Part shown: positions 869-19,930 of the stretch, piece by piece
Numbering within the stretch: the first letter of the stretch is position 1
Layout of the letters: each line of letters starts with the position of its first letter
Source: Synergistaceae bacterium
GTDB taxonomy: Bacteria > Synergistota > Synergistia > Synergistales > Aminobacteriaceae
NCBI GenBank assembly: GCA_031272035.1
Contig: JAISUO010000049.1
Coordinates: 1 to 49,039, forward strand
Length of the DNA: 49,039 nucleotides
Direction: 5' to 3'
The notes under the pieces: model-generated
What the model was told of the DNA's origin: nothing
Databases searched by the model: none
What the model saw: only the letters and a program-made list of their open reading frames with translations
Position numbers and translations under genes: made by a program

Positions 869-917
869 AACATTACTTTTCTATAAATTACAAAAAAGAA
901 AGAGAAGGACACATCTG

Positions 918-1970: not shown

Positions 1971-1990
1971 CTTCAGCTCACTCCCTTTGA

Positions 1991-2025
1991 AAGCGGCTTG
2001 GAAAGACCCTTCCGAGCCGCTTTTT
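1991..2025 (+). terminator. intra-operon hairpin between dctP and dctQ
   Basis: A 13-bp stem (1991-2003 with 2010-2022, one G-T pair) closes a six-base loop and is followed by TTTTTC. It stands between the binding protein and the small permease, so it likely acts as a partial terminator or 3' stabiliser that keeps binding-protein transcript in excess. Confidence 0.75.
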
Positions 2026-2048
2026 CTTTACAGAAAGAAGGCCCCGTT

Positions 2049-2558
2049 GTGAAATTTATGAACAAGGTAAAAAAGCTTGTGCTAAATATTTCTATTACCA
2101 TGTTTGTTATAGAAATAATCATAACACTTTTTCAAATCACAAGCCGGAACATTATTGGAAGGTCTTACGCGGAAATCGAAGAAATTGCAATAATCCTGCT
2201 CCCATGGTTCGGATTCTTCTGCGCAACGTACACACTTTATCGAGGAAACCATGTTCAGATCGAGTTCTTTTATTTCAAAATGCCCCGAAATCTCCAACGA
2301 ATTATTTTCTTGTTGACACAGGTGGTGCTTTTCATCTTAGTATCCACGATAGCCATCTACAGTATCAGGCTCTCCATTCGCCAATGGAACCTGAGCACTC
2401 CGTCACTCGGTTTACCAAACGGAATCAGGTATCTGGGGTTCCCCATTGTTACCCCATTTATGCTACTGCTTTTCGGCCACAATATCAGACGCACTTTTAA
2501 AGAAGAGTTCAACGATAACCAGGGGCTGAGTGAAATCCCAGCGAAAGGAGAAAATTAG
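2049..2558 (+). CDS. TRAP transporter small permease (DctQ family)
   Basis: Small integral membrane subunit of the TRAP transporter; it contacts the large permease and the loaded binding protein. About 169 residues with four hydrophobic segments: around KLVLNISITMFVIEIIITL, IAIILLPWFGFFCATYTLY, IIFLLTQVVLFILVSTIAIY and the C-terminal FPIVTPFMLLLF. The segment GNHVQIEFFY is the characteristic DctQ loop. I prefer GTG 2049, six bases after AGAAAGAAGG; ATG 2058 is an alternative three codons later. An upstream in-frame ATG-like start near 1998 falls inside the hairpin and is rejected. dctM begins three bases after the stop. Confidence 0.88.
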   Translation: MKFMNKVKKLVLNISITMFVIEIIITLFQITSRNIIGRSYAEIEEIAIILLPWFGFFCATYTLYRGNHVQIEFFYFKMPRNLQRIIFLLTQVVLFILVSTIAIYSIRLSIRQWNLSTPSLGLPNGIRYLGFPIVTPFMLLLFGHNIRRTFKEEFNDNQGLSEIPAKGEN

Positions 2559-2561
2559 TTT

Positions 2562-3860
2562 ATGGCCGGCGATTACCTGTTCTTCATAATCGCGTTTTTC
2601 CTTTTATTAATCGTATTGCGCGTGCCTATCGCTTTTTCGATGCTTATATCCTGCTTTGCGTTCATCCTTCTCTCGGGACGGTTGCCCCTCAGCAATATCT
2701 CCCAGGGAATGGTGTCGGGGCTCGGTAATTATGCGGTCATGGCATCTCCTTTTTTTATTTTAGTAAGCTATGTGATGAACCATGCTGGTGTCACGGAACA
2801 ACTCTTCGAATTTGCCAATTGCCTGGTGGGGCACATCAAAGGCGGTCTCGCGCACGTTAACGTACTGGCCAGCCTTATTTTTGCCGGAATGTCAGGTTCC
2901 GCAAATGCCGATGCGGCGGGGCTCGGCAATATCGAAATCCACGCCATGAAAGAAAAAGGGTTCGACGCCGATTTTGCTGTCGGTATAACTGCTGCGTCCA
3001 GTACAATAGGGCCGATATTTCCTCCTTCCAACCCCATGGTGTATGTCGGCATCTTTGCTAACGTCTCCATCGGAGCTATGTTCTACGGAGGCGTGGTTGT
3101 TGGGGTTCTCATGGCGTTGTTCATGTGCGTGACGGTATACGTTATCGCTCGAAAACGTAATTATCCCGTAGAAAAACGCGCAACGATGAAGCAATTATGG
3201 AAATCTTTCAGAGACGGATTTTGGGCGCTGCTGACGCCAGTAATCCTTTTGTACTGCCTCCAGAATGGCAATATCACACCTACAGAAGCTGGCGCTTTTG
3301 CTTTCGTATATGCTCTGTTCATAAGCATGTTCATCTACAAAAAATTGAAATTCCGGGATCTTTACGGTATTTTCGAACAGGCCGTTAACTCCGTCGGGAT
3401 CGTCCTCCTTTTTGTGAGTACAGGTAAAGTGTTCACATGGGCGCTGGGAGACCAGCAAGTAGGAGAAACCGTCGCCAGGTTCCTTTTTTCCCTGTCCCAG
3501 AACCCCTGGGTAGTCTTGCTGCTAATCAACTTATTTCTTCTCTTTTTGGGTACATTCATGGAAACTGTGGCGGCAATTACCATAGCTGCGCCAATTCTTT
3601 TCCCTATTGCCAGATCTCTTGGCATCAATCCAGTACAGTTCGGGGTAATATTTGTGTTGAATCTCATGATCGGTCTGTTGACACCGCCAATGGCAATCTG
3701 TCTATCGATAACCTCTAAAATCGGAGGGATCAGCTTTGAACGGGCATTTAAAGCTGTCACACCCTACTACATCGCTTTGTTGCTTGTCCTGTTGCTGATA
3801 AACCTGTTCCCGATTCTGACACTTGGCTTGCCACACCTGCTTCTCGGCGGCTATATGTGA
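2562..3860 (+). CDS. TRAP transporter large permease (DctM family)
   Basis: Main sodium-coupled transport channel of the TRAP system, in the inner membrane. The 432 residues are almost wholly hydrophobic, about 12 helices, a normal DctM length. The family signatures are visible: GMSGSANADAAGLGNIEI in the first half with TIGPIFPPSNPMV, and GTFMETVAAITIAAPI and IGLLTPPMAI in the second, which form the two substrate/sodium-binding halves. It starts at ATG 2562 behind GCGAAAGGAG. It follows dctQ immediately, and the next gene is 113 bases away in the same direction, so the dehydratase genes may be co-transcribed. Confidence 0.93.
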   Translation: MAGDYLFFIIAFFLLLIVLRVPIAFSMLISCFAFILLSGRLPLSNISQGMVSGLGNYAVMASPFFILVSYVMNHAGVTEQLFEFANCLVGHIKGGLAHVNVLASLIFAGMSGSANADAAGLGNIEIHAMKEKGFDADFAVGITAASSTIGPIFPPSNPMVYVGIFANVSIGAMFYGGVVVGVLMALFMCVTVYVIARKRNYPVEKRATMKQLWKSFRDGFWALLTPVILLYCLQNGNITPTEAGAFAFVYALFISMFIYKKLKFRDLYGIFEQAVNSVGIVLLFVSTGKVFTWALGDQQVGETVARFLFSLSQNPWVVLLLINLFLLFLGTFMETVAAITIAAPILFPIARSLGINPVQFGVIFVLNLMIGLLTPPMAICLSITSKIGGISFERAFKAVTPYYIALLLVLLLINLFPILTLGLPHLLLGGYM

Positions 3861-3973
3861 TCTTGAGAGAAAAGTCCGGACGAACGCTGCTGTTAGCCCT
3901 CCATGCCATGAGGGGGACGGTTTGTAACACCCAGATAGCAAGAACAACGTATTCCACACTGTGAGGTGTCTTC

Positions 3974-5017
3974 ATGAAACACAACATTAGGATGGTTGTC
4001 AGCCAATTCCAGGTATTTGACGAAGAAATGGCTGCTTTCGCAACTCAGTTAGGCATACATGAAATCCAAATGAATACTCCCGCGCTGCCAGGGGAAAAAG
4101 TATGGGCTTTTGAGGACATAAAAGACCTGAAAGACAGAATACAACACCATGGACTCAAGTTAGTCATGATCGAAAACATACCCCTGATATTTTATGACAG
4201 GGTAATTTTAGGCCTGCCGGGACGTGACGAACAGATTGCAAATTACATTACTACTATACGTAACCTGGCACGGCTTGATATCAGGCTTTTCGGTCATCAC
4301 TTTTCCCCAACCTTTGTGTGGCGCACGGACGACAAAGCACTTGGGCGAGGTAATTCAAAAGTCTCGGAATTTCGCCTTGAAAATCTGCGTGTTAATTCGA
4401 ATGCTTTTACAGAGCTGATGAGACGCAAACGCCATTTACTGGACTACGATGTGTTCGAGGTTGCCAGGGGATTGACGACGGAACATTTGTTTGAGAATTA
4501 CGCGTACTTTATGAAAGCCGTCACACCCGTGGCGGAAGAAGAAGGCGTCAAATTATTGTTACATCCCGATGACCCACCGTTAAAGGAATTCAATGGAATA
4601 CAACGCATGGTCACCTCCAGGGAGGACTATGAGAAGGCAATGGTCGTCGCCAACAGTGACGCATGGGGAGCTAACCTCTGTCTTGGATGCTGCTCGGAAA
4701 TGGGTGGAGCGGACGCGGTCAGGGATTTGATCCGGTTCTTTACAAAAAATCACCGCCTATATAGTGTGCATTTTCGTGATGTTCAGGGTATTCTACCCAA
4801 TTTTAAGGAATGTTTCTTGGGTGAGGGCAACTTCAACCCGGCAGAAATTATAAAGCTCCTTGCCGAAGAGGGATTTGAGGGACTGATCATGGAAGACCAT
4901 GTAGCGCACATGGATTTTGATTCTTTATACGGCCACAGGGCGCGGGCACATGAACTTGGGTACATCAAAGGCATGTTGAACATGCTGGATTTTGTTCCGT
5001 CAGTACCCCATGCCTGA
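3974..5017 (+). CDS. mannonate dehydratase-like protein (UxuA family), copy 1
   Basis: TIM-barrel metalloenzyme related to UxuA, which dehydrates D-mannonate to 2-keto-3-deoxygluconate in hexuronate breakdown. The 347-residue protein retains the four UxuA metal ligands by pattern: H197 (LLLHPDDPP), C236 (NLCLGCC), H266 (VHFRDVQG) and D308 (MEDHVAHM). It starts at ATG 3974 behind GAGGTG. It lies downstream of the TRAP genes and is followed after 48 bases by a second, divergent copy. Family membership is clear, but mannonate itself is not assured: the N-terminal half differs from classical UxuA and no uxuB, kdgK or uxaC is nearby. Confidence 0.8.
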   Translation: MKHNIRMVVSQFQVFDEEMAAFATQLGIHEIQMNTPALPGEKVWAFEDIKDLKDRIQHHGLKLVMIENIPLIFYDRVILGLPGRDEQIANYITTIRNLARLDIRLFGHHFSPTFVWRTDDKALGRGNSKVSEFRLENLRVNSNAFTELMRRKRHLLDYDVFEVARGLTTEHLFENYAYFMKAVTPVAEEEGVKLLLHPDDPPLKEFNGIQRMVTSREDYEKAMVVANSDAWGANLCLGCCSEMGGADAVRDLIRFFTKNHRLYSVHFRDVQGILPNFKECFLGEGNFNPAEIIKLLAEEGFEGLIMEDHVAHMDFDSLYGHRARAHELGYIKGMLNMLDFVPSVPHA

Positions 5018-5065
5018 AGGCAGAACCGTTATTTGTAAAGCTTTTTCGATAGAGGAGTCAATGGG

Positions 5066-6100
5066 ATGAATTTCGTAAAAGAATACCACGGAAACTCTAA
5101 CATCAAAATCAGTAACAGAATCGACGCGGAAGAAAGCGATGACTTTTTACAGTTTTTGCAGCAGATGGGTATCGATTGTTGCTATGCCTGGATAAAGACA
5201 GACCAGGATAATTACGATTTTCTGGCGCGGCTTAAGGAGCGTACCGCAAAGTATCATCTCAACCTGTTCAACTTAGGCAGCCTCGATTACGCCAAATCCT
5301 ACGCTGTCCATCGAGGTCTGCCAGAACGGGACAGAGACATTGAACGGCTGAATAATTTTATCAACGTTCTCGGAAAGATCGGCGTACCTACAACAACTAT
5401 CACATGGGAATCACAACATGCCTACGCGACATCGCCGGAAGGCTGGGTGGTAAAATCTGGACAGCCCAGGTATCAGATCACGACCCGTGGCGGAGCGCCG
5501 ACGCGCCTTTATGACCAACAAACAGTGGATGCCGACCCTCTCTCAAAAAAACTGCTTGTGACGAAGGAAGAAACATGGGCGAATTTCGAATACTTCGTAA
5601 AAGCTACCGTGCCAACCGCAGAAGAAAGTAAGGTGAGAATCTGCCTCCATCCGAATGACCCACCCGTTCCCAGTTCTTTGGGAGTCGCAACTCTCATTGA
5701 AAACATCGACGACTACAGGCGGGCCTTCGAAATCGCTGAAAGCGATTTCTTCGGCATGGAATTTTGCTGCGGCTGTTGGTTGGAGGGAGGACGCGCTCAC
5801 TTCTCAGATATTTTTCAGGCTATCCAAGAATTTGTAAAGGCCGGTAAGGTTTCGATTGTACATTTTCGCAATGTATCTGGTACGCTTCCATATTTCATTG
5901 AAACATTTGTGGATGACGGGTATGCGGATATGTACCAGATTATGAAAACCTTTGTGGAGGCCGGTTACAATGGGACGATGATCTATGATCATAGTCCCGA
6001 TATGACTACTGGGTTGGCTGCCCAGACCGCTTTCGCCATCGGATATATAAAAGCACTCAGACAGGCAGCGCAAAGCGAAGTACATAGAGGAATTCAATAG
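5066..6100 (+). CDS. mannonate dehydratase-like protein (UxuA family), copy 2
   Basis: Second UxuA-family TIM-barrel protein, 344 residues. The metal-ligand pattern is again intact: H195 (CLHPNDPP), C234 (EFCCGCW), H266 (VHFRNVSG) and D308 (IYDHSPDM). Outside these motifs it is strongly diverged from the first copy, so this is not a recent duplication; the two may act on different sugar acids or form a hetero-oligomer. ATG 5066 follows GAGGAG (5052-5057) with good spacing. It is the last gene of the AT-richer TRAP block and is followed by a hairpin at 6143. The substrate is not determined by sequence. Confidence 0.78.
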   Translation: MNFVKEYHGNSNIKISNRIDAEESDDFLQFLQQMGIDCCYAWIKTDQDNYDFLARLKERTAKYHLNLFNLGSLDYAKSYAVHRGLPERDRDIERLNNFINVLGKIGVPTTTITWESQHAYATSPEGWVVKSGQPRYQITTRGGAPTRLYDQQTVDADPLSKKLLVTKEETWANFEYFVKATVPTAEESKVRICLHPNDPPVPSSLGVATLIENIDDYRRAFEIAESDFFGMEFCCGCWLEGGRAHFSDIFQAIQEFVKAGKVSIVHFRNVSGTLPYFIETFVDDGYADMYQIMKTFVEAGYNGTMIYDHSPDMTTGLAAQTAFAIGYIKALRQAAQSEVHRGIQ

Positions 6101-6142
6101 AAGCCTAAAGCTTGCAGATCTCCCACTGTCCTCCAATGGATT

Positions 6143-6181
6143 GGACTTCGAGAGGCCTTGATCCTGAAGTCCCGTATTTTT
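6143..6181 (+). terminator. probable terminator after the UxuA-like pair
   Basis: GGACTTC (6143-6149) pairs with GAAGTCC (6166-6172), with a short inner AGG/CCT pairing, then CGTATTTTTAT. It ends the TRAP/dehydratase block. Apart from this and the promoter at 6349, the 343-base gap 6101-6443 is AT-rich with no gene seen. Confidence 0.55.
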
Positions 6182-6348
6182 ATATCTATGTGTGATAAGG
6201 CTTGGAAGTACAGGGTGAACCAATTTGGTCATAAATATAAAATATATTCTATGAATTGATCTTTCGGTCGACGTACATAGTCCTTGCAATTGTTGCTGGC
6301 TTCATAGATCTATTTTCTCGGGACTTCCTGCACAAAGTGACACGCATA

Positions 6349-6377
6349 TTGTCAACAGTGACCGAACATATTATAAT
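6349..6377 (+). promoter_or_regulatory. sigma70-type promoter for the LarA/SSS operon
   Basis: TTGTCA (6349-6354), exactly 17 bases, then a perfect TATAAT (6372-6377), 66 bases upstream of the first gene of the 6444-12173 operon. This is the best consensus promoter in the window. Confidence 0.85.
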
Positions 6378-6443
6378 TTTTAAATCTTATCTATATGTCG
6401 ACATCATACATAACACAAATAATAATGAAAGGTGGTTGAGTGA

Positions 6444-6884
6444 ATGAGGTTTATGCACACGAAACTGACGGAGTTTTACGAGAAACTGCGCCGGGCGGCG
6501 TGCAAGGTCCCTGGCAAGGAGTTTGAAGTGACGGGCCTGGAAAACCTTCGGACAGCCAAAATGCAATCCGTGGCCACCGGACGCATTGAGGAAACCATTC
6601 AGCAACTGGTGGAGCGTCCGGACGTCCAGAGGGTAGAGGCGCATTTCATGAACCTGATCCCGGAAACGGAACACACCCTCGTCCTGCGAGCTTACGGCCC
6701 CAACGGAGAGAAGGTCAAAGCCATTTTGCGCGAAATCACCATTTTCCACGAGACGGAGGAGGCGGAACTCGCCGGTTTTACCGACGTGGAGGATAAGCGA
6801 CTGCCGCTGAAATTTTACCACCCTGTCGAAAGTTTACCCCTGACGGGCTACGAAGACATCGACGCTCGAGCGAAAAAAGACTGA
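6444..6884 (+). CDS. uncharacterised 146-residue protein, first gene of the LarA/SSS operon
   Basis: I do not recognise this protein. It is soluble, charged, rich in Glu/Arg/Lys, with no signal peptide or membrane segment. An N-terminal helix-rich stretch (HTKLTEFYEKLRRAACKV) is followed by mixed alpha/beta sequence (EAHFMNLIPETEHTLVLRAYG; VKAILREITIFHETEEAEL) ending in a basic tail. A single Cys sits in RRAACKV. ATG 6444 follows AAAGGTGG. It lies 16 bases before the next gene and directly behind the promoter at 6349, so it is co-transcribed with the downstream genes. It could be a subunit or accessory of the 341-residue neighbour. Confidence 0.75.
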   Translation: MRFMHTKLTEFYEKLRRAACKVPGKEFEVTGLENLRTAKMQSVATGRIEETIQQLVERPDVQRVEAHFMNLIPETEHTLVLRAYGPNGEKVKAILREITIFHETEEAELAGFTDVEDKRLPLKFYHPVESLPLTGYEDIDARAKKD

Positions 6885-6900
6885 AGAAAGGAGGATAACC

Positions 6901-7926
6901 ATGGGTAAATTGAGGTACCGCCTCATCGCCGAGGGGATGTTGGAGGACAAGTTCATTCCGCTGACCATCGCCTACATCGACGTCAGGGACATCCGCAGGG
7001 CAGGCACGACTATCCAGGAGGCCATTCTGGCTGTGGGAAAAGCCTGTGGAGGGCCCTGCGGCATCAACATCTTCGACATGGAGGCCGTCACCACCACCAG
7101 CGACGGACTTATGGCCCCGGGTGCAATCATTTGCATGGCCGCCATGGACAGAGGAATACTCAACAAAGATTTCGGCACGCTGTTCATGGCGGAGATGCCC
7201 TACTCCAGAGAGCGCGTCGAAAAGGAGCCCCACCTGATCCAGTGGGAAAAGCGCTACTCCGGCAGGAGGCTCTTCAGAGGACCAAAACCGGCGACCAAAA
7301 GTATCCCAAAGCACCAGGCGGTCATGACCGGACGAGCTAACAACAACAATTCCGCCACGGAAATGATGAACATAGCCACCATGGAGGAGATTCTGCTTCC
7401 CATCCTGGGCCAGATCCAGTGCGTCCTGGGCGATGGCGACGTGCTGGTGGGGTACTGCGGAGGGGAAATTTCGGTGGGCATCGGCATGGTGGTTCCCGAA
7501 CTGTACGGGCGCGTCTTTCAGGTGCCGCTCTTCAAAGCCGGAGACACATCGCACAATTCCGGCCCGTACTCAAGAACTCTCAAAAGCGACATCCAATGCA
7601 TTGTTTCCGACAAGGCCTTTTTGGCGGAACACGTTCTCAACGCCATCGACGACGGCTGCGTTCCAGGGCGGATCATCGGAGGCTCGCCGGCGGTGTTGTC
7701 GGTGGCCCGGCATTACCACGCCGAAATCGACTATGACAACATCACCCCAAGGGCGTGGCTGGAACTGAGCAGCGTCGGCATCACCAGGGAAACATTACAG
7801 AAACCCACGCCCAAACTCAGCCGCGAGGAAATTTTGACCCGCGCCGACGAGATCATCCCCGGCGTGGACAAACCCTCGAAGCTTCCCGTGTCGAAAGTCG
7901 CTAAAGAGACGGAGATTGAAGTTTAA
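6901..7926 (+). CDS. uncharacterised 341-residue protein, probable enzyme
   Basis: Not recognised. It is a soluble 341-residue protein with glycine-rich, conserved-looking motifs suggesting an enzyme: GKACGGPCGINIFDMEAVTT (about 49-68), SDGLMAPGAIICMAAMDRG, TGRANNNNSATEMMNIATM, LGDGDVLVGYCGGEISVGIG and AGDTSHNSGPYSRTL. The Cys-Gly-Gly-Pro-Cys and Tyr-Cys-Gly-Gly segments could hold a metal or a thiol nucleophile. ATG 6901 follows a perfect GAAAGGAGG. The first gene lies 16 bases upstream and the symporter 63 bases downstream. Given the transporter and the LarA-like protein, a role in converting an imported hydroxy acid or related compound is plausible, but that is context only. Confidence 0.75.
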   Translation: MGKLRYRLIAEGMLEDKFIPLTIAYIDVRDIRRAGTTIQEAILAVGKACGGPCGINIFDMEAVTTTSDGLMAPGAIICMAAMDRGILNKDFGTLFMAEMPYSRERVEKEPHLIQWEKRYSGRRLFRGPKPATKSIPKHQAVMTGRANNNNSATEMMNIATMEEILLPILGQIQCVLGDGDVLVGYCGGEISVGIGMVVPELYGRVFQVPLFKAGDTSHNSGPYSRTLKSDIQCIVSDKAFLAEHVLNAIDDGCVPGRIIGGSPAVLSVARHYHAEIDYDNITPRAWLELSSVGITRETLQKPTPKLSREEILTRADEIIPGVDKPSKLPVSKVAKETEIEV

Positions 7927-7989
7927 CCAGGGCCGTGGGTCATGGACCCGTTAAAAAAGCGGAATTTCAAAACTATGAGGTGATTATAT

Positions 7990-9372
7990 ATGTTAATCGC
8001 AACATGGGTCATAGCGTTTTTGATCATGGTCGCTCTGGGCATTTACGCGGGCAACGTCATCAGCCAGTCCAACCAGTGGAGCGGCGCGGACAGAACATTG
8101 GGAGTGTGGGGGCTGGCCTGCATCTACGCGGCCTTCCAAATCGGCGGCGCCGCCATCGTGGGAGCGGCTCAGGACGGCTACAACTTCGGTCTGGCGGCCA
8201 TGTGGTACTCCCTGGGCACCGGCTCCTACTTCATCGTGGACGCGCTGTTCGCCGGAGGGCTCCGCGCCAAAATGACGGGCGACTCCGTCCCCGCCTTTCT
8301 CAGGCAGCATTTCAACAAAGGGCTGTCCCGTTTTTACGCCGTGATGTTCCTTCTCATGATGCTGTTCCTCATTCCCCTTCAGAGCAAATCCGTCGCCTCT
8401 TTGATTCAGGTCGTCATCCCCGAACTCGACGTCAGGATCTGCCTGGTCGTTTCCATCACCTTGGCTGCGGTTTATACCGGTTACGCCGGAATGAAGGGAG
8501 CGGAGGTCATCGGCAAGATCGTGTGTTTCTTCACTTACCTGCTCCTCATCGCGTTTGTCATTATGCACCTGAATAAATTTGGCGGCTACAGCGGTTTGGT
8601 CGCCAGCCTTCCGGAAGGGCACGGAAAAATATTCGCCGGACGCATGACGCCCGCCTACGTGGGAGCGCTTATTCTCGGCGGCGTCCTCAGTTCGTCTCTG
8701 TCCCAGGTGGTCCTCCAGCCCCTGCTGGCCGCCAGAAGCGACGGCGTTGCCCGCGCGGGGGCGTTGCTGGGCTACGTCATCAGCGCTCCGATTTGCATCA
8801 TCACCGGCATCATAGGCATGATGGCGGCCAAGCACAGCAATTTCAGCCTGGGGAATGGCGTCGGCGCTTTCGCATGGATCACCAAGGAACTCAGCCACCC
8901 TGCCGTTGCAGGTCTCTTCTTCGCGGTCACCACCATGATTATCGCGGCCACCATGGCCACCTTCATCATGTCCGCCGGGACGGTGGTGAAAGGCCTTTAT
9001 TTCGATCTCATCAACCCGAAGGCCACAGATAAGCAATTGCTGGCAGTGTCTCGATGGGGAACCATCCTGGCGGCCTACATCACCCTGATTCCCGCCATCC
9101 TTCTGCCCTCCAGCGCCATCAACGCGTTGTTCATGACCGTCCGGTACGCCTGCGGCTCGCCCTTCAGCTTCGCCATCATCGGTGGAACCTTCTGGAGCAG
9201 GGTCACCACGAAAGCCGCATCCTGGAGCGTCATCGCGAGCACCATCGTCGTCGCCGTCTGGCTTGTCATGGGACTCGACGGCAGGATTTCGGTGTTGTAT
9301 CCTTCCCTGGTGGTTTCCTTCGCGGTGGGCATCGCGGCCACTCTGATGGACTCGGGCAAGGCGAAGTCCTGA
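7990..9372 (+). CDS. sodium:solute symporter (SSS family)
   Basis: Secondary transporter of the solute:sodium symporter (PutP/PanF-like) family in the inner membrane. The 460 residues give about 12-13 hydrophobic segments in the LeuT-fold order. Typical SSS features are the GAAQDGYNFGLAAMWYSLG region after TM2, KMTGDSVPAFLRQHFN in the cytoplasmic loop, and the long helix GYAGMKGAEVIGKIVCFFTY. ATG 7990 follows TGAGGTGAT. It sits between the unknown 341-residue protein and the LarA-like protein, so it probably imports their substrate. Sequence alone does not name the substrate; carboxylates, proline and sugars are all possible in this family. Confidence 0.88.
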   Translation: MLIATWVIAFLIMVALGIYAGNVISQSNQWSGADRTLGVWGLACIYAAFQIGGAAIVGAAQDGYNFGLAAMWYSLGTGSYFIVDALFAGGLRAKMTGDSVPAFLRQHFNKGLSRFYAVMFLLMMLFLIPLQSKSVASLIQVVIPELDVRICLVVSITLAAVYTGYAGMKGAEVIGKIVCFFTYLLLIAFVIMHLNKFGGYSGLVASLPEGHGKIFAGRMTPAYVGALILGGVLSSSLSQVVLQPLLAARSDGVARAGALLGYVISAPICIITGIIGMMAAKHSNFSLGNGVGAFAWITKELSHPAVAGLFFAVTTMIIAATMATFIMSAGTVVKGLYFDLINPKATDKQLLAVSRWGTILAAYITLIPAILLPSSAINALFMTVRYACGSPFSFAIIGGTFWSRVTTKAASWSVIASTIVVAVWLVMGLDGRISVLYPSLVVSFAVGIAATLMDSGKAKS

Positions 9373-9394
9373 AGGATACTGAAGGAACGAAGGC

Positions 9395-10669
9395 ATGAAG
9401 TTCACTTTACAGCAAAATATGTGGCAGGGTTTCGAGCCGGTGGAGATCGAGCTGCCTGACGCCTGGGACGTGGAGTACCACGGCGTCAAAGCCGACTCCC
9501 TGCCCGCGCTTACAAAGGAGGAAATCCGGGCGAAAATCAACAGGCCCTTCGGCCTGCCGCCCCTTCGGGAGCTCGCCAGGGGCCGGCAAAAGGTCGCCAT
9601 CGTTTTCGACGATATTTCCCGTGGCACGCCCACGCAGATCCTGGCCGAAATCGTTCTGGAAGAGCTGCACGCGGCGGGCATTCAAAAGGAGCAGATCCGA
9701 TTCCTCTGCGCTTTGGGCATGCATGGGGCGCACAACAGGCGCGACTTCGTCTGCAAACTGGGCGAAGAAATCGTCAGCAGCTACGACGTCTACAACCATA
9801 ATTGCTACGAGAACAACCTGCAGATCGGCGTCACCAAACGCGGGATTCCCGTCCAAATCAACGCCGAGCTGATGGCCTGCGACCTGAAAATCGGTCTGGG
9901 CGCCATGCTTCCCCACATCTTCAACGCTTTCGGCGGCGGCGGCAAAATCCTGTTCCCCGGCATGGCTTCGGACGTGACCGTGAACGGAAACCACACGGCC
10001 ATCGTTTCGTTCATGCAAAAGAACAAAGTCTCCCTGGCGGACCTGCTGGGCGACCTGCGGGTGGACGCCATGCGCACGGAAGTGGAGGAAATGACCCGGA
10101 TGGTGGGGGAGTTCTTCAAGATCGACTGCCTCTTCAACACCCGCCAGGAGATCGTTGACGTATACTCCGGGGACGCCATTGAGGAATACTACGCGGCGGT
10201 TCCCAAGGCCCAGGAAATCTACGTTTCCAAACGGGCCAGGGACAAGCAGATCGTCATCGTCAACGCCAACGCCCGTTCCAACGAGGCCAACATCGCTCTC
10301 GCCCTGGCGTTTTTGGGCATTTCCAGAGAAACAGGCGGAGACATCGTGCTCATCGACCGAACCACCATGGGACAGATCGTTCACTATCTTTTCGGCATGT
10401 TCGGCGACGACGCCCCCGGCAGGCAGTACCGCAAGGTAGCCAAGCCCAGCGATTTCATCCGCCGCATCATCTGCTTCATGAACAGAGATTCCACCACGGC
10501 GCACATCCTGGGCAACATGGACAAGCAGGTCTACGTCAACTCCTGGGCGGAGGTCATGGAGCTGCTCAGGGATTACGGCCCGGGAACGAAGGTGTCGGTT
10601 CTGGCGGACGGCAGTATGCAGTATTTCGAGATCGACCCAAACCTGAAGCTGACCTCGGGCGCGGCCTGA
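9395..10669 (+). CDS. LarA-like protein (DUF2088, nickel-pincer racemase family)
   Basis: Homologue of the lactate racemase catalytic subunit LarA, a family that racemises or epimerises 2-hydroxy acids with the nickel-pincer cofactor NPN. The 424-residue length is normal. Family motifs are visible: FDDISRGTP (71-79, with R76), LCALGMHGAHN (H110), YNHNCYEN (H135), and DLKIGLGAMLPHIFNAFGGGGK (split across H174 and K184). The only lysine between GIPV (151-154) and PH (173-174) is K165, so the cofactor-tethering lysine of the Lactiplantibacillus enzyme may not be at its usual place. No larB, larC or larE lies in the window, so cofactor synthesis would be elsewhere. ATG 9395 follows GAAGGA. The substrate is unknown. 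Confidence 0.8.
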   Translation: MKFTLQQNMWQGFEPVEIELPDAWDVEYHGVKADSLPALTKEEIRAKINRPFGLPPLRELARGRQKVAIVFDDISRGTPTQILAEIVLEELHAAGIQKEQIRFLCALGMHGAHNRRDFVCKLGEEIVSSYDVYNHNCYENNLQIGVTKRGIPVQINAELMACDLKIGLGAMLPHIFNAFGGGGKILFPGMASDVTVNGNHTAIVSFMQKNKVSLADLLGDLRVDAMRTEVEEMTRMVGEFFKIDCLFNTRQEIVDVYSGDAIEEYYAAVPKAQEIYVSKRARDKQIVIVNANARSNEANIALALAFLGISRETGGDIVLIDRTTMGQIVHYLFGMFGDDAPGRQYRKVAKPSDFIRRIICFMNRDSTTAHILGNMDKQVYVNSWAEVMELLRDYGPGTKVSVLADGSMQYFEIDPNLKLTSGAA

Positions 10670-10703
10670 TCGAATCGCGGCGGAAAATCGGGAAGGGGCC
10701 ACG

Positions 10704-11090
10704 ATGGATAACGAGACCTATATCATCGCCCAGGCGGACAAACAGGTTCTCAAAATCAGCGGACTGTCCGTGAAAGGGCTGGACACGAGACGGCTGGAAG
10801 CCATTCTGAGCGAAAAGGTCGGAAGTGTCGTTCGGGTTATCGGAGTTACGGGAAGTTCTATCGAAATGGACATCTACGGCGTCCCCGACGAACAGGTTCT
10901 CAGGAACGAAAGAGGGTTTGTGGAAGCGCTTGCCCTTGCCGAGGGCATCACGATTTCCGACCTTACGGCTGTGACGGCTTCACGAAAAATTATTCCCGCT
11001 GACTTCGCCGACATGCCTCCTGACAGAGACGCCGCCTGCGCCGCGGAAAGATGGATGCCCCATAAAGAAGGACGCGTCGTAAAAAAATGA
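10704..11090 (+). CDS. uncharacterised 128-residue protein of the LarA/SSS operon
   Basis: Not recognised. A small soluble protein with beta-strand-like repeats in the first 60 residues (TYIIAQADKQVLKISGL, VGSVVRVIGVTGSSIEMDIYG), then a helical region (EQVLRNERGFVEALALAEG) and a Pro/Asp-rich tail ending in lysines. There is no membrane segment and only one Cys. ATG 10704 follows GGAAGGGG. It lies 34 bases after the LarA-like gene, and its stop overlaps the next ATG (ATGA at 11087-11090), so the two products are probably made in matching amounts. A binding or regulatory subunit is possible; there is no direct evidence. Confidence 0.72.
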   Translation: MDNETYIIAQADKQVLKISGLSVKGLDTRRLEAILSEKVGSVVRVIGVTGSSIEMDIYGVPDEQVLRNERGFVEALALAEGITISDLTAVTASRKIIPADFADMPPDRDAACAAERWMPHKEGRVVKK

Positions 11091-11596
11091 GAAACGTTTT
11101 GATCCTGCCCACGGGCGGTGAAATTCGGGACGGGACTGTTCTGGACACGGACAGTCCCGAACTCATGCGTCAGGTTCTCGCTGCGTACCCCCTGTGCCGG
11201 GTAATCCGGGCCTCCCCGCTTTCAGACGAGGAATCGGCCATTGCCGAGGCCGTGTTGGAAGGGCGCGACGGAGGAGCCGGGCTGGTTGTTCTGATCGGAG
11301 GAAGCGGCGGCGGACACCGGCACAGCAGCAGCCTGGGAAAAGATTACACACACTCGGCGCTGGAAAAAATCCTGGAAAATCCGGCGTCCAGAGCCATCTA
11401 CGGAAAGAATGGCCACCTGTGGAGCAGAATGCTCTGCGGCCGGCTGGGCGATACGGTCGTCATCAACGTGCCCGGCCCTTTCACAGAGGCTCAGGCGGCC
11501 TTCGCCGCTTTTCTCAAAAGCTGGCGGGACAGGCCCGGCGACTGCGCCGCCGCCTGCCTCGCCATGGCGGAAGCGGTGCTCGAACATTATGGATGA
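11087..11596 (+). CDS. MoCF-like (MoaB/MogA/MoeA-fold) protein
   Basis: A 169-residue protein that resembles the molybdopterin-binding MoCF fold. The N-terminus ILPTGGEIRDGTVLDTDSPE matches the T-G-x-E-I-x-x-G-x-x-x-D-x-N strand-loop, and LVVLIGGSGGGHRH followed by GKDYT matches the GG-S/T-G loop with its downstream Asp-x-Thr. The later part (GDTVVINVPG) also fits the fold. It is overlapped at both ends: the start by the upstream stop, and its stop by the next ATG (11589). In this operon it may bind a nucleotide-like cofactor or substrate rather than make molybdopterin, since no other molybdenum-cofactor gene is present. The family call is moderate and the role is inferred. Confidence 0.62.
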   Translation: MRNVLILPTGGEIRDGTVLDTDSPELMRQVLAAYPLCRVIRASPLSDEESAIAEAVLEGRDGGAGLVVLIGGSGGGHRHSSSLGKDYTHSALEKILENPASRAIYGKNGHLWSRMLCGRLGDTVVINVPGPFTEAQAAFAAFLKSWRDRPGDCAAACLAMAEAVLEHYG

Positions 11597-12173
11597 CACG
11601 GTCACAGGAGTGTTTTTTTGCGCGGGGATGATGGGGTCGTCCATTCCCTTCGCCGCCGGAGGCTTTTGTCAGTCGGGGACGGAACGGCTCTGTGAAGAGG
11701 AAATGAGGAGGCTGGAACATCTGAACCTTTCATCCTGCCGTGACCTCTTCCTTCTGGACAAAAAAGCCGCCGAAGCGGTGCAGGAACGCGCGAAGTCTTT
11801 CATATACGCGGTGGGGATCACCTTCCGCCATCCAGAAATCTGCGCCTCTACGGGAGGCGTGCTGGGCAACCCGAACCGGGAGGGTCGGTCTTCCGAGGGC
11901 ACGACGGAGGATATTGGAAACGGTTTCAGCATGTTCTCCCACCCCGGCGGCCCAGGCGTCGTCATTCGAGGGGACGCGGAAACGCTGGAACCGCTTGCCC
12001 GAATGAGCTTCAACGGACTGAAAGGCGGGAAAAAAGCCGAGATCGCGGAGGCCGTTTTAAGAGAAAATGCCGTAGAAGTCTATATGATCCTCACGGACGG
12101 AACGGGCCCTGACGCAGAAGGCATCCTCCGGATCAGAGCCGGCAGAAGGAACATCCGTTACAGGCTGCCCTGA
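11589..12173 (+). CDS. uncharacterised 194-residue protein, last gene of the LarA/SSS operon
   Basis: Not recognised. A soluble protein with several small-residue loops: FFCAGMMGSSIPFAAGGFCQ near the N-terminus, YAVGITFRHPEICASTGGVLG (about 72-92), MFSHPGGPGVVIRGD and VYMILTDGTGPDAEG. Three cysteines lie in or near the first two loops. No signal peptide is evident, although the first 20 residues are mildly hydrophobic. ATG 11589 overlaps the upstream gene by eight bases, indicating coupling. It closes the operon; the next gene is convergent at 12219. It might form a complex with the MoCF-like protein, as their stoichiometric coupling suggests. Confidence 0.72.
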   Translation: MDDTVTGVFFCAGMMGSSIPFAAGGFCQSGTERLCEEEMRRLEHLNLSSCRDLFLLDKKAAEAVQERAKSFIYAVGITFRHPEICASTGGVLGNPNREGRSSEGTTEDIGNGFSMFSHPGGPGVVIRGDAETLEPLARMSFNGLKGGKKAEIAEAVLRENAVEVYMILTDGTGPDAEGILRIRAGRRNIRYRLP

Positions 12174-12175
12174 GC

Positions 12176-12205
12176 TTCATGCTGTACTGGTTCATGCTGT
12201 ACTGG
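12176..12205. repeat. 15-bp perfect tandem duplication
   Basis: TTCATGCTGTACTGG occurs twice in direct succession between the convergent ends of the LarA/SSS operon and the M42 gene. There is no dyad symmetry or T-run; no terminator was seen in this 45-base gap. Confidence 0.85.
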
Positions 12206-12218
12206 AAAGAAAGTCTTC

Positions 12219-13178
12219 TTACGCCGTGCGAATGATCTCCGCGAGCACGTTTGCCACACCTTCCGCGTCGCGGAGGCAGATCATCTCGCCGGGAGAGAGA
12301 CGGCCTTTCGTGGGCAGGCCGATGGCGCACGCCGACGCGCCGGCGCGAAGCATGTGGCTTGCGGCAGTTTCGCGTCCGTCCGGTTTGTCGATGATCTCGC
12401 GCTGAAGCTCGACGCCCGCTCTCCTGGCGCAGGTCTCGACCCGCTCAACCGCATCCCGGGGGTATATCGCGCCCGTGTCCCGAAGGACGACGGACGGGCC
12501 GTGTCCGAACTTCGTCCTTCCAGCGTCGATGACGTCAATCGCGACGCCAATCTCGGGGGCGAGGGCCCCGGATGCCGCCCTGACGCCTCTGGCGTCCAGC
12601 TCTGCCTGCGCGGCGAAAACGAACGCCATATCGCCTCGGGCGCGCGTTTCTCCCGCCGCCATGACGAGCGCGGCGCACGCCGCCGCCGCCGCGCAGGAGG
12701 CCCCGATCACAATGCCGTCCCCCTCCGCGAACGCCGGAGGAAACGTGGCGGCATCCCCCGCCCTGACTCCGGAGGCGTGTTCAGGCGAGCCCATGTCGAT
12801 ATACAGATTCTTCATTTCTACGGAGGCGTCATAAGCGACGACGCCGCGCCCTCCGCCGCTGAAGCGGACCTGCGCGCCAACCAAAGCGTGGGGATCGAGT
12901 GTCCCTATCGGCATAAAACCGACCTTCCCCGTCCCGTCGGGGGTTTTCGCGATCAACGTCGGCGAGTCGAGAGGAGCGCAGATCATGATTTTTCTCCCCT
13001 TTTCCCCATTTCCCCCGGTTCCGCGGCGGCACACGATCAGGCTGCCAAGGGGGTCGAACGAAATTTCGTCCGCAAGGCCCTCCATCGCGCGGGCCAAAAC
13101 TTCCGCTCTCTCTTTTTGGTATCCCGTGGGCGCCGGAGCTTCCACGATGTTTTTGATTAACGCGAGCAGTTCCGTCAT
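12219..13178 (-). CDS. M42 aminopeptidase paralogue, probably inactive
   Basis: A 319-residue member of the M42 glutamyl-aminopeptidase family, third of three tandem copies. It keeps the fold pattern (YQKERAEVLARAMEGL; SFDPLGSLIVCRRG; GFMPIGTLDP), but the dinuclear metal site is eroded. Compared with the adjacent active-looking copies, AHTDEVG becomes APLDSPT (His lost), KAIDDRLG becomes VIGASCAAA (Asp lost), and VCEEVGLRG becomes AAQAELDARG (catalytic Glu lost, second Glu kept). Only one Asp ligand (IDVIDAG) and a downstream His remain plausible. It lies four bases after the preceding gene, so it is co-expressed; it may be a structural or regulatory subunit of a mixed M42 shell. It is also about 27 residues shorter than its neighbour. 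Confidence 0.78.
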   Translation of the reverse strand: MTELLALIKNIVEAPAPTGYQKERAEVLARAMEGLADEISFDPLGSLIVCRRGTGGNGEKGRKIMICAPLDSPTLIAKTPDGTGKVGFMPIGTLDPHALVGAQVRFSGGGRGVVAYDASVEMKNLYIDMGSPEHASGVRAGDAATFPPAFAEGDGIVIGASCAAAAACAALVMAAGETRARGDMAFVFAAQAELDARGVRAASGALAPEIGVAIDVIDAGRTKFGHGPSVVLRDTGAIYPRDAVERVETCARRAGVELQREIIDKPDGRETAASHMLRAGASACAIGLPTKGRLSPGEMICLRDAEGVANVLAEIIRTA

Positions 13179-13182
13179 ATCT

Positions 13183-14220
13183 TCACTTCCCCATTATGCG
13201 AATGAAAAGCCGCGTCAGGTCGAGCACGGCGACGGCGTCAGGCAGATACAGGACGTTGTTGGCGCTGTGAATGTAGCGGGTGGGCGCGGACACGCCGAAC
13301 GTAAGGGAGCCGCCGTTCCTCAGATGGATCGAGCCGGAGTCCGTGCCCCCTTTCGCCCCGTCGCGGGGCTGCCAGCGAATACCCTCGGCATCCGCCGCTT
13401 CCGTCATTCGCCGCAGAACATCCCGATCGTAAAACGTGGCGCGGTCCATCAGAGAAACCGCCGCGCCGCCTCTCTGATACGTCGGGCGGTTGTCGGAGGG
13501 AACGCCTGGCATGTCCGCCGCGCTCGTCCCCTCCAGGACAAGGGACACGTCGGGGCGGACCCGTTCCGTGAGCGCCGCCGCGCCGCGAAGCCCGACCTCC
13601 TCGCACACCGAGAACGCGAACCACGCGTCGAACGGCAGTTCTTCCCGGATGAGCGCAACCATCACGGCGCAGCCCAGACGGTCGTCGATGGCCTTCGCCT
13701 TGAAATAGTCCTCGCCGAACGGGCAGGGCTCGCTTTCAAAGGCGATCGGGTCGCCGACGTGGACGTGCCGGAGCGCCTCCGCCCTGTCCCTGGCGCCGAT
13801 ATCGACGAACAGCTCCTCTATGGAAGGGCAGAGGGTTTTCTTTTTTTCGTCCCACAGTTGGAACGCCTTGACGCCCACCACGCCGGGCAGGTTCTTCTCT
13901 CCGATCCGCACCCTTTGCCCCAGGATGACGCGGGGGTCGAGAGAGCCCACGGCGACGAATTTCAGCAACCCCTCGTCCGTGATTCGAAAGACGAGCCCCC
14001 CGACCTCGTCCGTGTGCGCGCAGATCATTAAACGCCGGGCCGGGCGCTCCGCTCCTTTTTTAAATACGATGAGGCTCCCCATCGCGTCGGTCGTCATCTC
14101 GTCGGCGTGGGGCGCGACCATCTCGCGGACGGCCGCACGCGCGCGATCCTCGTAGCCCGAAACGCCATCGACGGCGCACAGCGTCTGCATCAACGCGGTC
14201 AGTTCGGTTCGCGAGGTCAT
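13183..14220 (-). CDS. M42 family aminopeptidase
   Basis: Metallo-aminopeptidase of family M42 (glutamyl aminopeptidase/TET type), usually a 12-subunit cytosolic shell that trims peptides from the N-terminus. The 345-residue product has the full active site: H and D in ICAHTDEVGG, bridging D in KAIDDRLG, the Glu pair in VCEEVGLRG, the acid in LVLEGTSAAD and the downstream GGTDSGSIH with YIHSANN. I start at ATG 14220, which overlaps the stop of the upstream paralogue (ATGA), rather than at a start 57 codons earlier inside that gene. It acts downstream of the Dpp peptide importer in the same transcription direction. Confidence 0.9.
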   Translation of the reverse strand: MTSRTELTALMQTLCAVDGVSGYEDRARAAVREMVAPHADEMTTDAMGSLIVFKKGAERPARRLMICAHTDEVGGLVFRITDEGLLKFVAVGSLDPRVILGQRVRIGEKNLPGVVGVKAFQLWDEKKKTLCPSIEELFVDIGARDRAEALRHVHVGDPIAFESEPCPFGEDYFKAKAIDDRLGCAVMVALIREELPFDAWFAFSVCEEVGLRGAAALTERVRPDVSLVLEGTSAADMPGVPSDNRPTYQRGGAAVSLMDRATFYDRDVLRRMTEAADAEGIRWQPRDGAKGGTDSGSIHLRNGGSLTFGVSAPTRYIHSANNVLYLPDAVAVLDLTRLFIRIMGK

Positions 14221-15287
14221 GAGACGCGGCCTCCTTCTCCATTCAAACCCTGAAAGTCCAAACCGCGAAAGTCCCGACAGAAGGCGCATAACAGCTTTCC
14301 CAGCGCTTCCACGTCGTCCAGGCGGACCGTTTCGACGGGCATGTGCATATACCGGACCGGCAGAGAAACGACGACCGTCGCCGCGCCGCACGCCGCGATT
14401 TGCGCCGCCCAGGCGTCCGTCCGGCTGGTTCTCGGTATGGCTTCAAGCTGATAAGGGATGTTTTCCCGCTCGGTGACCGCGATCAACGCCTCCGCCATGC
14501 GCGGGGAGCTGTTCGCGCCGCGCCCGATCACCGGCCCGCCCCCCATCTCGTGTACCCGCTCATATTTCCCGGCGTCCGGCGTTCGCGCGTGACAGGCGTC
14601 CACCACGACGATATATTCGGGGCGTTCGCGCCTGACGACCTGCTCCGCGCCGTGCAACCCGGATTCCTCCCTCGTGACGCCTGCGACCGCGAGCTGACAC
14701 GGCAGTTCCACGCCCGCAAGCCCTTCGAGCGCGTGGAGAACGGCTGCGAGCCCCGCTCTGTTGTCCATCGCCGGGCCGGCGATCGTTCCGCCCAGAAGCT
14801 CCACCGGCCTCGTGTCGTATACGGCGAAGTCGCCCGGACGGATCAGTTCTCTCGCCTTTTCGCCGCTCATGCCGAGGTCCAGCGTCATATCCTCCGGGCG
14901 CGGCGCTTTCAGCTCGTCCCCGTCTTCCTGGAGGTGAGGGGGCAGCGCGCTCACGATGGCTTTGAGCGGGCCGTTTCGCGTCAGGATCGTCATTTCGTTC
15001 GAGAGCAGGATTCTGGCGTCGATGCCGATTGGCGAAAAACGGGCGAAGCCATCGTCCGTCACCTCCGTGACCATCAGGCCCGCCTGGTCGATGTGAACGT
15101 CGATCAGGAGCTTCGGCGCGCCCGTTCGGGAACTGCCGCGCATGGCCACGACGTTCCCGAATGGATCGACGGATACCGAGTCCGTCAGGGGGCGCAGCCT
15201 GGCCGCGAGATCGGCCGACACGGCGCCTTCGTCTCCCGAGACGCCGCGCAGAGACGACAGACGCATGATTTCACTTTTCAAATCCAT
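14217..15287 (-). CDS. M42 family aminopeptidase
   Basis: First of three tandem M42 genes, 356 residues. Metal ligands and catalytic residues are intact: IDVHIDQAG (H, D), PAMDNRAG (bridging D), TREESGLHG (catalytic Glu plus ligand), VVVDACHA (D) and RYMHMPVE (final His). The RTSRTDAW segment fits the family's substrate loop. I place the start at ATG 15287, preceded by GAGGTG; the longer reading from 15344 would begin inside the terminator hairpin. The next gene overlaps its stop by four bases. It should hydrolyse peptides brought in by the Dpp system just upstream. Confidence 0.9.
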   Translation of the reverse strand: MDLKSEIMRLSSLRGVSGDEGAVSADLAARLRPLTDSVSVDPFGNVVAMRGSSRTGAPKLLIDVHIDQAGLMVTEVTDDGFARFSPIGIDARILLSNEMTILTRNGPLKAIVSALPPHLQEDGDELKAPRPEDMTLDLGMSGEKARELIRPGDFAVYDTRPVELLGGTIAGPAMDNRAGLAAVLHALEGLAGVELPCQLAVAGVTREESGLHGAEQVVRRERPEYIVVVDACHARTPDAGKYERVHEMGGGPVIGRGANSSPRMAEALIAVTERENIPYQLEAIPRTSRTDAWAAQIAACGAATVVVSLPVRYMHMPVETVRLDDVEALGKLLCAFCRDFRGLDFQGLNGEGGRVS

Positions 15288-15395: not shown

Positions 15396-16895
15396 CTATT
15401 TCCAGCTGAAATTGTAGATGAAGTAGAACGTCAGATCCAGACTGGCGTTGAGGTTTTTGGACCAGGCGTAGGGCTTCGACCTGTAGAGAATGGGGACGAA
15501 CCCGCAGATTTCCTGCACGTAATCGTTCGCTTCCCTGTAGATCGCCTGACGTTTCGCGTGGTCGAGCTCCACGTCGCCCTTGTCCATCAGCTCGTCGATG
15601 TGCGGGTCGCGGAACTTCACGGCCGCCACTTCGGCGGAGCGGGTGTGCGTCAGCCGCGAAAAATAGCTGAAATCGCGGTCGAGGCTGAGTCCCATGAGCC
15701 CGAAGCCGTAGGTCCCCTTGCGCATATTCGCGATGACGGCGGATGTGTCCATCGGCTGAATCGAGCAGGTGACGCCGATCTCCTCGAAATTCTGCTGGAG
15801 GACCTGCGCGATCTTGGGCCAGTAGCTGCTGCCGATGATGATCATGGGCCCCACGTCGATCCCGTCGGCGCAGCCCGCTTCTTTCATGAGCGCCTTTGCC
15901 TTCTCGGGGTTGTACTCGTATTTGACGCCGTCCTTTGGCGCGTCCGCGACGTACTTCGGGTACAGCATGAAATCGGCGGGCTCCGCCAATCCCTCGTAGG
16001 ACGCGATGATGATGGACTCCTTATCCACAGCGCAGGCCATCGCCTGGCGCAATTTCTGATTGTCAAAGGGCTTCTCGCTGATGTTGAAGGCCAGATAGCT
16101 GATGTGGTTCTCAGGAGCGAGCACCGTCGTGTATTTTTTGCTCTCCTCGATCCCGGCCCAGTTCGACAGCGGAATCTGCACCAGATCCAGCTCGCCGCTC
16201 TCAAAGGCGATAAGCGCGCTGGAGGTGTCGGGCATGATGCGGTACGTGACGTTTTTGATGGCCGGCGCGCCGCGCCAGTAGTCGTCGAACGCGACCAGCT
16301 CGACGCGGCTGCTGGGGTCGTACTTCACGACCTTGTAGGGGCCGGTGCCGCAATCCACGACGGTCGTCCCGAACTTGTCCCCAGCCGCCTCGACGGCCTT
16401 TTTGTTCAGGATCGCGATATCGACGATATAACCCAGAGCGGCGGTCATGACGGCCTTCGTCTTCACCTCGACCGTGGAGGGATCCACCGCGCGCACGCTT
16501 TCGATGGGCGAGACGCGCATCGCCATCGCGGGCGCTTTCATGGCCCGCTGGAAGGAAAAGACCACGTCGTCCGCCGTCACGGGCTCTCCGTTGTGAAATT
16601 TGGCCTTACGAAGTTTGAAGGTGTACGTCCTGCCGTCCGAAGCCAGCGTGTGGGACTCCGCGAGGCGCGGCGCAAGCGTGGTGTCGTCCTGGGTGTAGTA
16701 CAGGCTTTCGTACATCTGCCACAGTATCTGAAGGTCCGCGAGGGCCGTCGTGTAGTACGGGTCGAGTGAGGTCATCTCGCTGGGGATCGTCAGGTTGATG
16801 TCGGTCCTCGGCGCGGCCGTCGCCGCGTGGAACGAACCCCACGCCGTGAGAACGGCGAGAGCGATTGCGAGCGCGAAGAGCATCTTTTTACACAT
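15396..16895 (-). CDS. peptide ABC transporter substrate-binding protein (family 5, DppA/OppA-like)
   Basis: Extracytoplasmic receptor for peptides (or nickel/opines in related proteins) of the SBP family 5. It is 499 residues, with signal peptide residues 1-28 (MCKKMLF, then ALAIALAVLTAWGSF, cut near ATAAPR). Family motifs are LTIPSEMTSLDPYYTT, LAPRLAESHTLASDGRTYTF, KFHNGEPVTADDVVFSF (the SBP_bac_5 signature), GTGPYKVVKYDP and a C-terminal VPILYRSKPYAW. I choose ATG 16895, seven bases after AGGAGGA. It is the last of five dpp-type genes, after both ATPases. No lipobox cysteine is evident, so it may be a free periplasmic protein. Confidence 0.92.
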   Translation of the reverse strand: MCKKMLFALAIALAVLTAWGSFHAATAAPRTDINLTIPSEMTSLDPYYTTALADLQILWQMYESLYYTQDDTTLAPRLAESHTLASDGRTYTFKLRKAKFHNGEPVTADDVVFSFQRAMKAPAMAMRVSPIESVRAVDPSTVEVKTKAVMTAALGYIVDIAILNKKAVEAAGDKFGTTVVDCGTGPYKVVKYDPSSRVELVAFDDYWRGAPAIKNVTYRIMPDTSSALIAFESGELDLVQIPLSNWAGIEESKKYTTVLAPENHISYLAFNISEKPFDNQKLRQAMACAVDKESIIIASYEGLAEPADFMLYPKYVADAPKDGVKYEYNPEKAKALMKEAGCADGIDVGPMIIIGSSYWPKIAQVLQQNFEEIGVTCSIQPMDTSAVIANMRKGTYGFGLMGLSLDRDFSYFSRLTHTRSAEVAAVKFRDPHIDELMDKGDVELDHAKRQAIYREANDYVQEICGFVPILYRSKPYAWSKNLNASLDLTFYFIYNFSWK

Positions 16896-16914
16896 AACTA
16901 CTCCTCCTTTTATT

Positions 16915-16978: not shown

Positions 16979-16994
16979 TAACCCACCGGCGCTT

Positions 16995-19005: not shown

Positions 19006-19046
19006 GGCATACTCTTTCTGTTCCATCGCCTGTTCCATCGCCCGCG

Positions 19047-19919: not shown

Positions 19920-19930
19920 GAGCGCGTCCC

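Follow-up and report, generated by a model that had tools for sequence, protein, structure and literature searches.

Which of the seven closely spaced genes on the contig JAISUO010000049.1 of a Synergistaceae bacterium (assembly GCA_031272035.1) form a functional unit, and what could this unit do? The whole stretch of 49,039 nucleotides was analysed and is called the window below. A preliminary description of the locus had regarded the seven genes as an operon built on a LarA homolog and a sodium:solute symporter (SSS). The comparison with other genomes gives a different answer: the conserved unit consists of the other five genes, and not of LarA plus the symporter. The seven open reading frames (ORFs), all on the + strand, fill positions 6444-12173 of the window (ORF listing). 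The features of the locus are the following:

6349..6377, + strand: sigma-70-type promoter-like site TTGTCA-17-TATAAT, agrees with the consensus at 11 of 12 positions, better than any other site of the scanned 9.1 kb (3500-12600)
6444..6884, + strand: unk146, module gene 1, 146 amino acids (aa), no family in Pfam, NCBIfam or PDB
6901..7926, + strand: unk341, module gene 2, 341 aa, confidently predicted structure, no close solved relative
7990..9372, + strand: SSS sodium:solute symporter, 460 aa, PF00474 (SSF) with 64.2 bits (Pfam cut-off 22.8)
9395..10669, + strand: LarA homolog, 424 aa, PF09861 (Lar_N) with 169.1 bits (cut-off 23.3; E 9.2e-50)
10704..11090, + strand: unk128, module gene 3, 128 aa, no family in Pfam, NCBIfam or PDB
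11087..11596, + strand: MoCF169, module gene 4, MogA-like molybdopterin-binding-type protein, 169 aa, PF00994 (MoCF) with 41.1 bits (cut-off 26.6)
11589..12173, + strand: unk194, module gene 5, 194 aa, no family in Pfam, NCBIfam or PDB

The five-gene module, which had previously not been named, is represented by some or all of its genes in nine other genomes, comprising one Spirochaetes metagenome-assembled genome (MAG) and several Clostridia-type genomes, and five of the nine have all five genes in the same order. When one genome of each species was scanned, three relatives of unk341 with 56% identity came to light, in the Spirochaetes MAG and in two Eubacteriaceae MAGs. The order unk146-unk341-unk128-MoCF-unk194 is present in the Spirochaetes MAG (L002) and, complete, in a Eubacteriaceae MAG (L004), and in the Eubacteriaceae MAG G184 the same set is split over two contigs (L003, L015). 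Searches of Clostridia-type groups added the genomes G248, G809, G847, G1030, G1040 and G1041. The order is the same in G248 and G1040, while NadD lies between unk341 and unk128 in G1041 and the five genes are rearranged into two blocks in G847. Partial modules occur in G1030 (unk146-unk341-unk194) and in G809, where part of unk146 is followed by unk341 and unk128 and then by unrelated genes. All five module genes are conserved at the protein level even in distant genomes and can therefore be regarded as real genes. Neither a symporter nor LarA is located between unk341 and unk128 in any of the clusters of the nine other genomes, and no SSS homolog was found at the other module loci; the symporter is specific to the operon version of the window's genome. 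The coherence of the gene set and the uncharacterised nature of the partners, both put forward in the preliminary description, are supported. The SSS/LarA pair is not among the genes that recur, and the idea that the operon was built on it is not supported.

The module is rare: it was detected in 1 of the 183 genomes of the window's order, in 3/67 and 1/294 genomes of two other orders, in 3 genomes of a 391-genome class sample and in 4 of the 207 genomes of the family of G847. This patchy spread over very different anaerobic bacteria suggests that the module has been distributed by horizontal transfer. Moreover, the SSS/LarA pair looks as if it had been inserted between unk341 and unk128 in the lineage of the window, and the GC content at third codon positions (GC3), which is 0.80-0.82 for the pair and 0.60-0.76 for the five module genes, is consistent with such an insertion. 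The combination of larA with an SSS gene was also found on a plasmid of Pusillibacter faecalis, the symporter of which shares 26% identity over 191 residues with that of the window. The plasmid searches gave no match to unk341.

As described previously, the seven genes are tightly packed and partly overlapping, with gaps of 16, 63, 22 and 34 bp followed by overlaps of 4 and 8 bp, and Shine-Dalgarno-like GGAGG/AAGG runs precede several of them. The strong promoter that had been postulated was also recovered; it would drive all seven genes as a single transcript. No clear terminator was detected between 12173 and 12219, where a convergent M42 peptidase gene ends. Directly past unk194, the tandem direct repeat TTCATGCTGTACTGG occurs twice at 12178-12207 between the convergent genes. 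The region 12219-14391 contains two adjoining M42 peptidase genes with unequal likeness to the family and precedes an oligopeptide ATP-binding cassette (ABC) transporter (15396-20863). Upstream of the operon (840-6100), a tripartite ATP-independent periplasmic (TRAP) transporter (DctP, DctQ, DctM) is encoded together with two UxuA-like TIM-barrel genes. This block has a GC content of 42-48% (56% for the window) and a GC3 of about 0.5, and judged by its composition it is of different origin. The TRAP and UxuA-like genes were excluded as operon members by their GC3 and by a 343-bp gap that contains the promoter.

The neighbourhoods of the module in other genomes point repeatedly to the nickel-pincer nucleotide (NPN), a rare nickel-containing cofactor. 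LarB, LarE and LarC synthesise it from nicotinic acid adenine dinucleotide (PMC11796402; PMC9283937). LarA homologs near the module in other genomes belong to a different subgroup (group 22) and lie at the module end. In G185 and G1040, such a homolog, above the NCBIfam cut-off, directly adjoins the module; G184 has the orthologue in the corresponding position. A gene of the LarA superfamily is therefore a direct module neighbour in three lineages, the window, G184/G185 and G1040; if genes were ordered at random, no more than about 1% of genomes should have such a neighbour (estimated for 2 neighbours and at most 12 such genes among about 3000). LarB above the cut-off adjoins unk128-MoCF in G847 and is found near the module in G1030, and in both genomes it is the only LarB found above the cut-off. 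The N-terminal part of LarC follows unk194 in G847. The gene for NadD, the enzyme that makes the substrate of LarB, lies inside the G1041 module and adjoins that of G248, in both cases above the cut-off. LarB above the cut-off is present in eight of the ten module genomes, and LarA homologs in all seven that were searched for Lar_N. The genome of the window has 12 Lar_N matches, namely the window LarA and 11 others, of which five are group-22-like. A look for larB and larC elsewhere in this genome, which the preliminary description had suggested, was successful: one LarB above the cut-off and one full-length LarC are encoded outside the operon. Because LarB and LarC are present together with many Lar_N matches, NPN is probably available in this organism.

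Three further loci were observed in the course of this survey. At L048 (G000:C69, 4425-4952), also in the window's own genome, a stand-alone LarC2-like domain protein just below the NCBIfam cut-off is encoded next to TRAP transporter genes. At L085 (G000:C105, 3-2817), a nicotinate phosphoribosyltransferase-like gene immediately precedes a group-22-like LarA homolog, so that here, too, a nicotinate-nucleotide gene is combined with the gene of an NPN enzyme. A second cluster in G847, L053 (G847:C43, 266-9000), contains a full LarC, an unassigned protein of 478 aa, a ferredoxin-like protein, a 2-oxopent-4-enoate-hydratase-like gene, a fusion of an N-terminal domain to MoCF, a permease and a divergent NadC-like gene, and possibly represents another NPN-linked pathway. 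The MoCF half of the fusion matches (E 2e-11). The fused protein was rejected as an unk128-MoCF fusion, as its N-terminal domain did not score clearly above the controls (3 of 60 shuffles were higher, and the best natural control reached 19.3, compared with 20.5 for the domain). No match to the fusion or to the 478-aa protein was obtained in the plasmid searches.

Catabolic genes also accompany the module. In G1040, the module and its group-22 LarA homolog are preceded by a DeoR regulator, a D-threonate-kinase-like gene, PdxA and a TRAP transporter; PdxA exceeds its own cut-off, and the kinase, with 285 bits, falls below the equivalog cut-off of 450. In G1041, the module is accompanied by a TRAP transporter and a pyruvate:ferredoxin oxidoreductase (NifJ), and in G847 and G1030 by a four-subunit pyruvate/2-oxoacid:ferredoxin oxidoreductase of the PorCDAB type. 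The simplest common reading of these neighbours would be a carboxylate that feeds pyruvate or triose metabolism.

In agreement with the preliminary description, unk146, unk341, unk128 and unk194 match no known family: single-sequence scans gave no Pfam family and a best NCBIfam match at chance level (E 0.2), and only chance-level matches emerged when every member of the family alignments was compared with Pfam and when PDB sequences were searched with profiles. The best of these was a match of unk128 to a stretch of the beta subunit of D-lysine 5,6-aminomutase (E 0.03). unk146 has a core of about 120 aa and, in the window's genome, an extra C-terminal tail; its orthologues are 29-50% identical in eight genomes, and a partial one lies at a contig edge in a ninth. 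unk341 is 39-56% identical in the nine other genomes and unk128 41-50% in seven. unk194 is fast-evolving (25-29% in eight genomes) and has the conserved motifs TGG..G.P and GGPG.

A fold search of the four proteins had been recommended as well. The structure of unk341 could be predicted confidently from 10 sequences (predicted local distance difference test, pLDDT, 89.5; predicted template modelling score, pTM, 0.91), and this model replaced an earlier one from 5 sequences with a pLDDT of 68. Neither model gave a solid PDB match in fold searches (Foldseek E 0.5 at best), and a search of a viral library with unk341 returned nothing. An initial match of unk341 to acetamidase (E 0.19) vanished in the profile search and was discarded. 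Most of the best structural rows belong to the fold of diaminopimelate (DAP) epimerase, including PrpF, LigU and proline racemase, with Z values of at most 3.9 over 136 of the 341 residues and a root-mean-square deviation of 4.2. The match covers one lobe of this fold, via the N-terminal region and a C-terminal strand, and may merely reflect a common arrangement. The invariant residues of unk341 include one histidine, H218, and the lysines K133, K228 and K238; the least certain part of the model is at residues ~191-216, just before H218.

MoCF169 aligns over its full length with the Cnx1G/MogA profile (Cnx1G E 1.1e-4) and has altered motifs (IGGSGGGH, DYTHSAL, GKNGHLW). The seven genomes in which both proteins were found all have it paired with unk128. 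The related COG1058 domain of CinA has been shown to form a family of pyrophosphatases connected with the recycling of NAD (PMC3680494). LarC is reported to cytidylylate its substrate, which is thereby activated, before nickel is inserted (PMC11796402), and for this reason a MogA-like nucleotidyl transferase beside LarB would be chemically plausible.

The pairwise identities of the module proteins suggest two evolutionary units. The values of unk146 covary with those of unk341 (correlation coefficient r 0.91) and those of unk128 with MoCF (r 0.72), and there is no covariation across the units (unk341-MoCF -0.06; unk341-unk128 0.19). In G248, unk341 is divergent (34-41% to all others), and unk128 and MoCF are ordinary (40-55%). 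The pattern is suggestive of unk146 and unk341 forming a substrate-specific enzyme and of unk128 and MoCF serving as a constant partner pair.

The LarA homolog of the window was aligned with LarA of Lactiplantibacillus. All NPN-binding positions and both histidines are kept: D73, R76, K184, H200, H110 and H174, corresponding to D72, R75, K184, H200, H108 and H174 of the reference. Gln295 and Lys298, which are kept in all five comparison LarAs, are replaced by L302 and A305. Furthermore, the protein falls into none of the curated NCBIfam subgroups (malate, lactate, LarAH10 etc.): its best score of 189.6 bits is far below the respective cut-off of 500. LarA homologs without H174 or K298 may not invert the stereocentre, and another hydride-based reaction is conceivable (PMC7583248). 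The cofactor residues agree with the racemisation or epimerisation proposed in the preliminary description, whereas the loss of the Gln295/Lys298 equivalents weakens it, and simple racemisation by this enzyme is not assured.

Taken as a whole, we consider it about an even bet (probability roughly 0.5) that the seven genes form an NPN-linked catabolic operon for a hydroxy or sugar acid, which was assembled from the five-gene module and the SSS/LarA pair. The neighbourhoods strengthen the link to NPN and to the import and breakdown of an acid. The undescribed hydroxy-acid (or related) pathway suggested before is partly supported, although it would not be centred on LarA and the symporter. The recurrence and gene order of the module, the position of the SSS/LarA pair, the NPN-gene neighbourhoods and the LarA residues are observed, and each chemical step is proposed. 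Going by its family, the symporter would import a carboxylic hydroxy or sugar acid, on which the LarA homolog, given its cofactor residues, may perform NPN-dependent hydride chemistry at C2. unk146 and unk341 would jointly act as the substrate-specific enzyme that converts the acid in the direction of a 2-oxoacid, for example pyruvate, because pyruvate:ferredoxin oxidoreductase and threonate-pathway genes are linked to the module in other genomes. As LarB, LarC and NadD neighbour the module, unk128 and the MogA-like MoCF169 could be the constant pair and act on a nucleotide cofactor, for which NPN or a pyridine nucleotide related to it is most likely. unk194 would be an accessory protein.

Several points weigh against this reading. 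Gene neighbourhood is indirect evidence. LarB and LarC were not found in the draft genomes G184 and G185, although both carry the module and LarA homologs, which could be due either to incompleteness of the drafts or to another cofactor source. No NPN gene was found in the flanks of the G183 and G809 clusters, both of which are cut on one side. NadD near the module could serve NAD rather than NPN. With 12 Lar_N matches in the genome, the LarA neighbour in the window is less surprising than it would be elsewhere. The two-unit pattern is based on 7-10 sequences and largely on G248. Finally, L053 is linked by its MoCF domain only, the N-terminal domain not being significantly unk128-like.

The best-surviving alternative, which we hold to be possible and clearly less probable, is that the module encodes a threonate/erythronate-type sugar-acid enzyme complex with no cofactor role, that the nearby LarA homologs are epimerases for the same substrate and that LarB, LarC and NadD are incidental. 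The kinase-like gene, PdxA and TRAP transporter that stand alongside the module and the group-22 LarA homolog in G1040 would fit, as would the failure to find LarB and LarC in G184/G185. However, NadD inside the module in G1041 and LarB adjoining unk128-MoCF in G847 would have to be fortuitous, and the variation of unk128 and MoCF independently of unk341 is easier to reconcile with a role in cofactor handling than with one tied to the substrate.

The original idea, namely that the operon is dedicated to LarA and the symporter, with LarA racemising an imported 2-hydroxy acid and the other five proteins serving as pathway enzymes or racemase accessories, appears unlikely. The mid-operon LarA with its six intact NPN/histidine positions, the adjacent symporter and the similar pair on the Pusillibacter plasmid are in its favour, but the module is kept elsewhere without this LarA and without any symporter, and the LarA homolog lacks two residues kept in all five comparison enzymes. 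Similarly doubtful is the possibility that unk341, together with unk146, is a nickel-pincer-dependent enzyme unrelated to LarA, the cofactor of which is loaded or modified by unk128 and MoCF169. Here, the G847 cluster with LarB and LarC but no LarA and the invariant H218, K133, K228 and K238 as candidate residues are encouraging. Moreover, non-LarA NPN proteins have been postulated, since about 15% of the surveyed genomes possess larB, larE and larC without larA (PMC11796402). Yet all seven module genomes searched for Lar_N have LarA homologs, and the unk341 model is least certain just before H218. unk146 and unk341 might even represent the first NPN enzyme that is not a LarA relative, or depend on a sister cofactor derived from the same pyridine nucleotides, and unk128 and MoCF169 a new cofactor-activation or insertion pair reminiscent of the nucleotide-dependent nickel insertion by LarC, an idea that we regard as a minority possibility. 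A chance or historical juxtaposition, in which the SSS/LarA pair fell into a horizontally acquired block without functional coherence, would suit the rarity of unk341 in the order (1/183) and the GC3 of the pair, which differs from that of the module and sharply from that of the TRAP/UxuA block, but it is improbable in view of the preserved tight spacing and overlaps, the module order kept across very different bacteria and the independent recurrence of LarA-superfamily neighbours.

How does the operon compare with known systems? Like the lar operon of Lactiplantibacillus plantarum (larA-larB-larC...), which encodes the NPN-dependent lactate racemase, it has a LarA with the NPN-binding and histidine residues, and LarB and LarC adjoin the module in G847. 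In contrast to the lar operon, it lacks larB, larC and larE as well as the Gln295/Lys298 equivalents, and it contains five extra genes that are unknown from the lar operon. A resemblance also exists to the LarA operons for sugar and hydroxy acids (Desguin et al. 2020, PMC7583248; group 22 of NCBIfam NF052515), since group-22 homologs stand beside the module in G184, G185 and G1040 and transporter and catabolic neighbours are typical of operons of this kind. The main text of the LarA-family papers, as far as covered and supplementary context tables aside, does not mention the five-gene partner set. The D-threonate-type pathway, consisting of the DUF1537 kinase DtnK and PdxA2, has a homologous kinase and PdxA beside the module in G1040; neither the window nor the other module loci contain its genes, and the G1040 kinase is below the equivalog cut-off. 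MoCF169 shares the fold family of the molybdopterin adenylyltransferases MogA and Cnx1G and matches their profile over its full length, but differs in its motifs and in its pairing with unk128. A relationship of unk341 to DAP epimerase or to the methylaconitate-type isomerases PrpF and LigU is not demonstrated by the model comparison: the proteins are ~9-10% identical, the second half of unk341 is unmatched and Z is far below a safe level.

What does the module mean for NPN biology? According to PMC11796402, which names none of them, other NPN proteins should exist in the genomes without larA. A module with four unannotated families beside LarB, LarC, NadD or LarA homologs provides a short candidate list for NPN-linked proteins other than LarA. 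As two of the carriers, G1030 and G1041, have been assembled to megabase contigs, experiments may be possible. Indeed, the module could reveal an anaerobic route for hydroxy or sugar acids, and it supplies new candidates for further uses of the NPN cofactor or for the acids it acts on.

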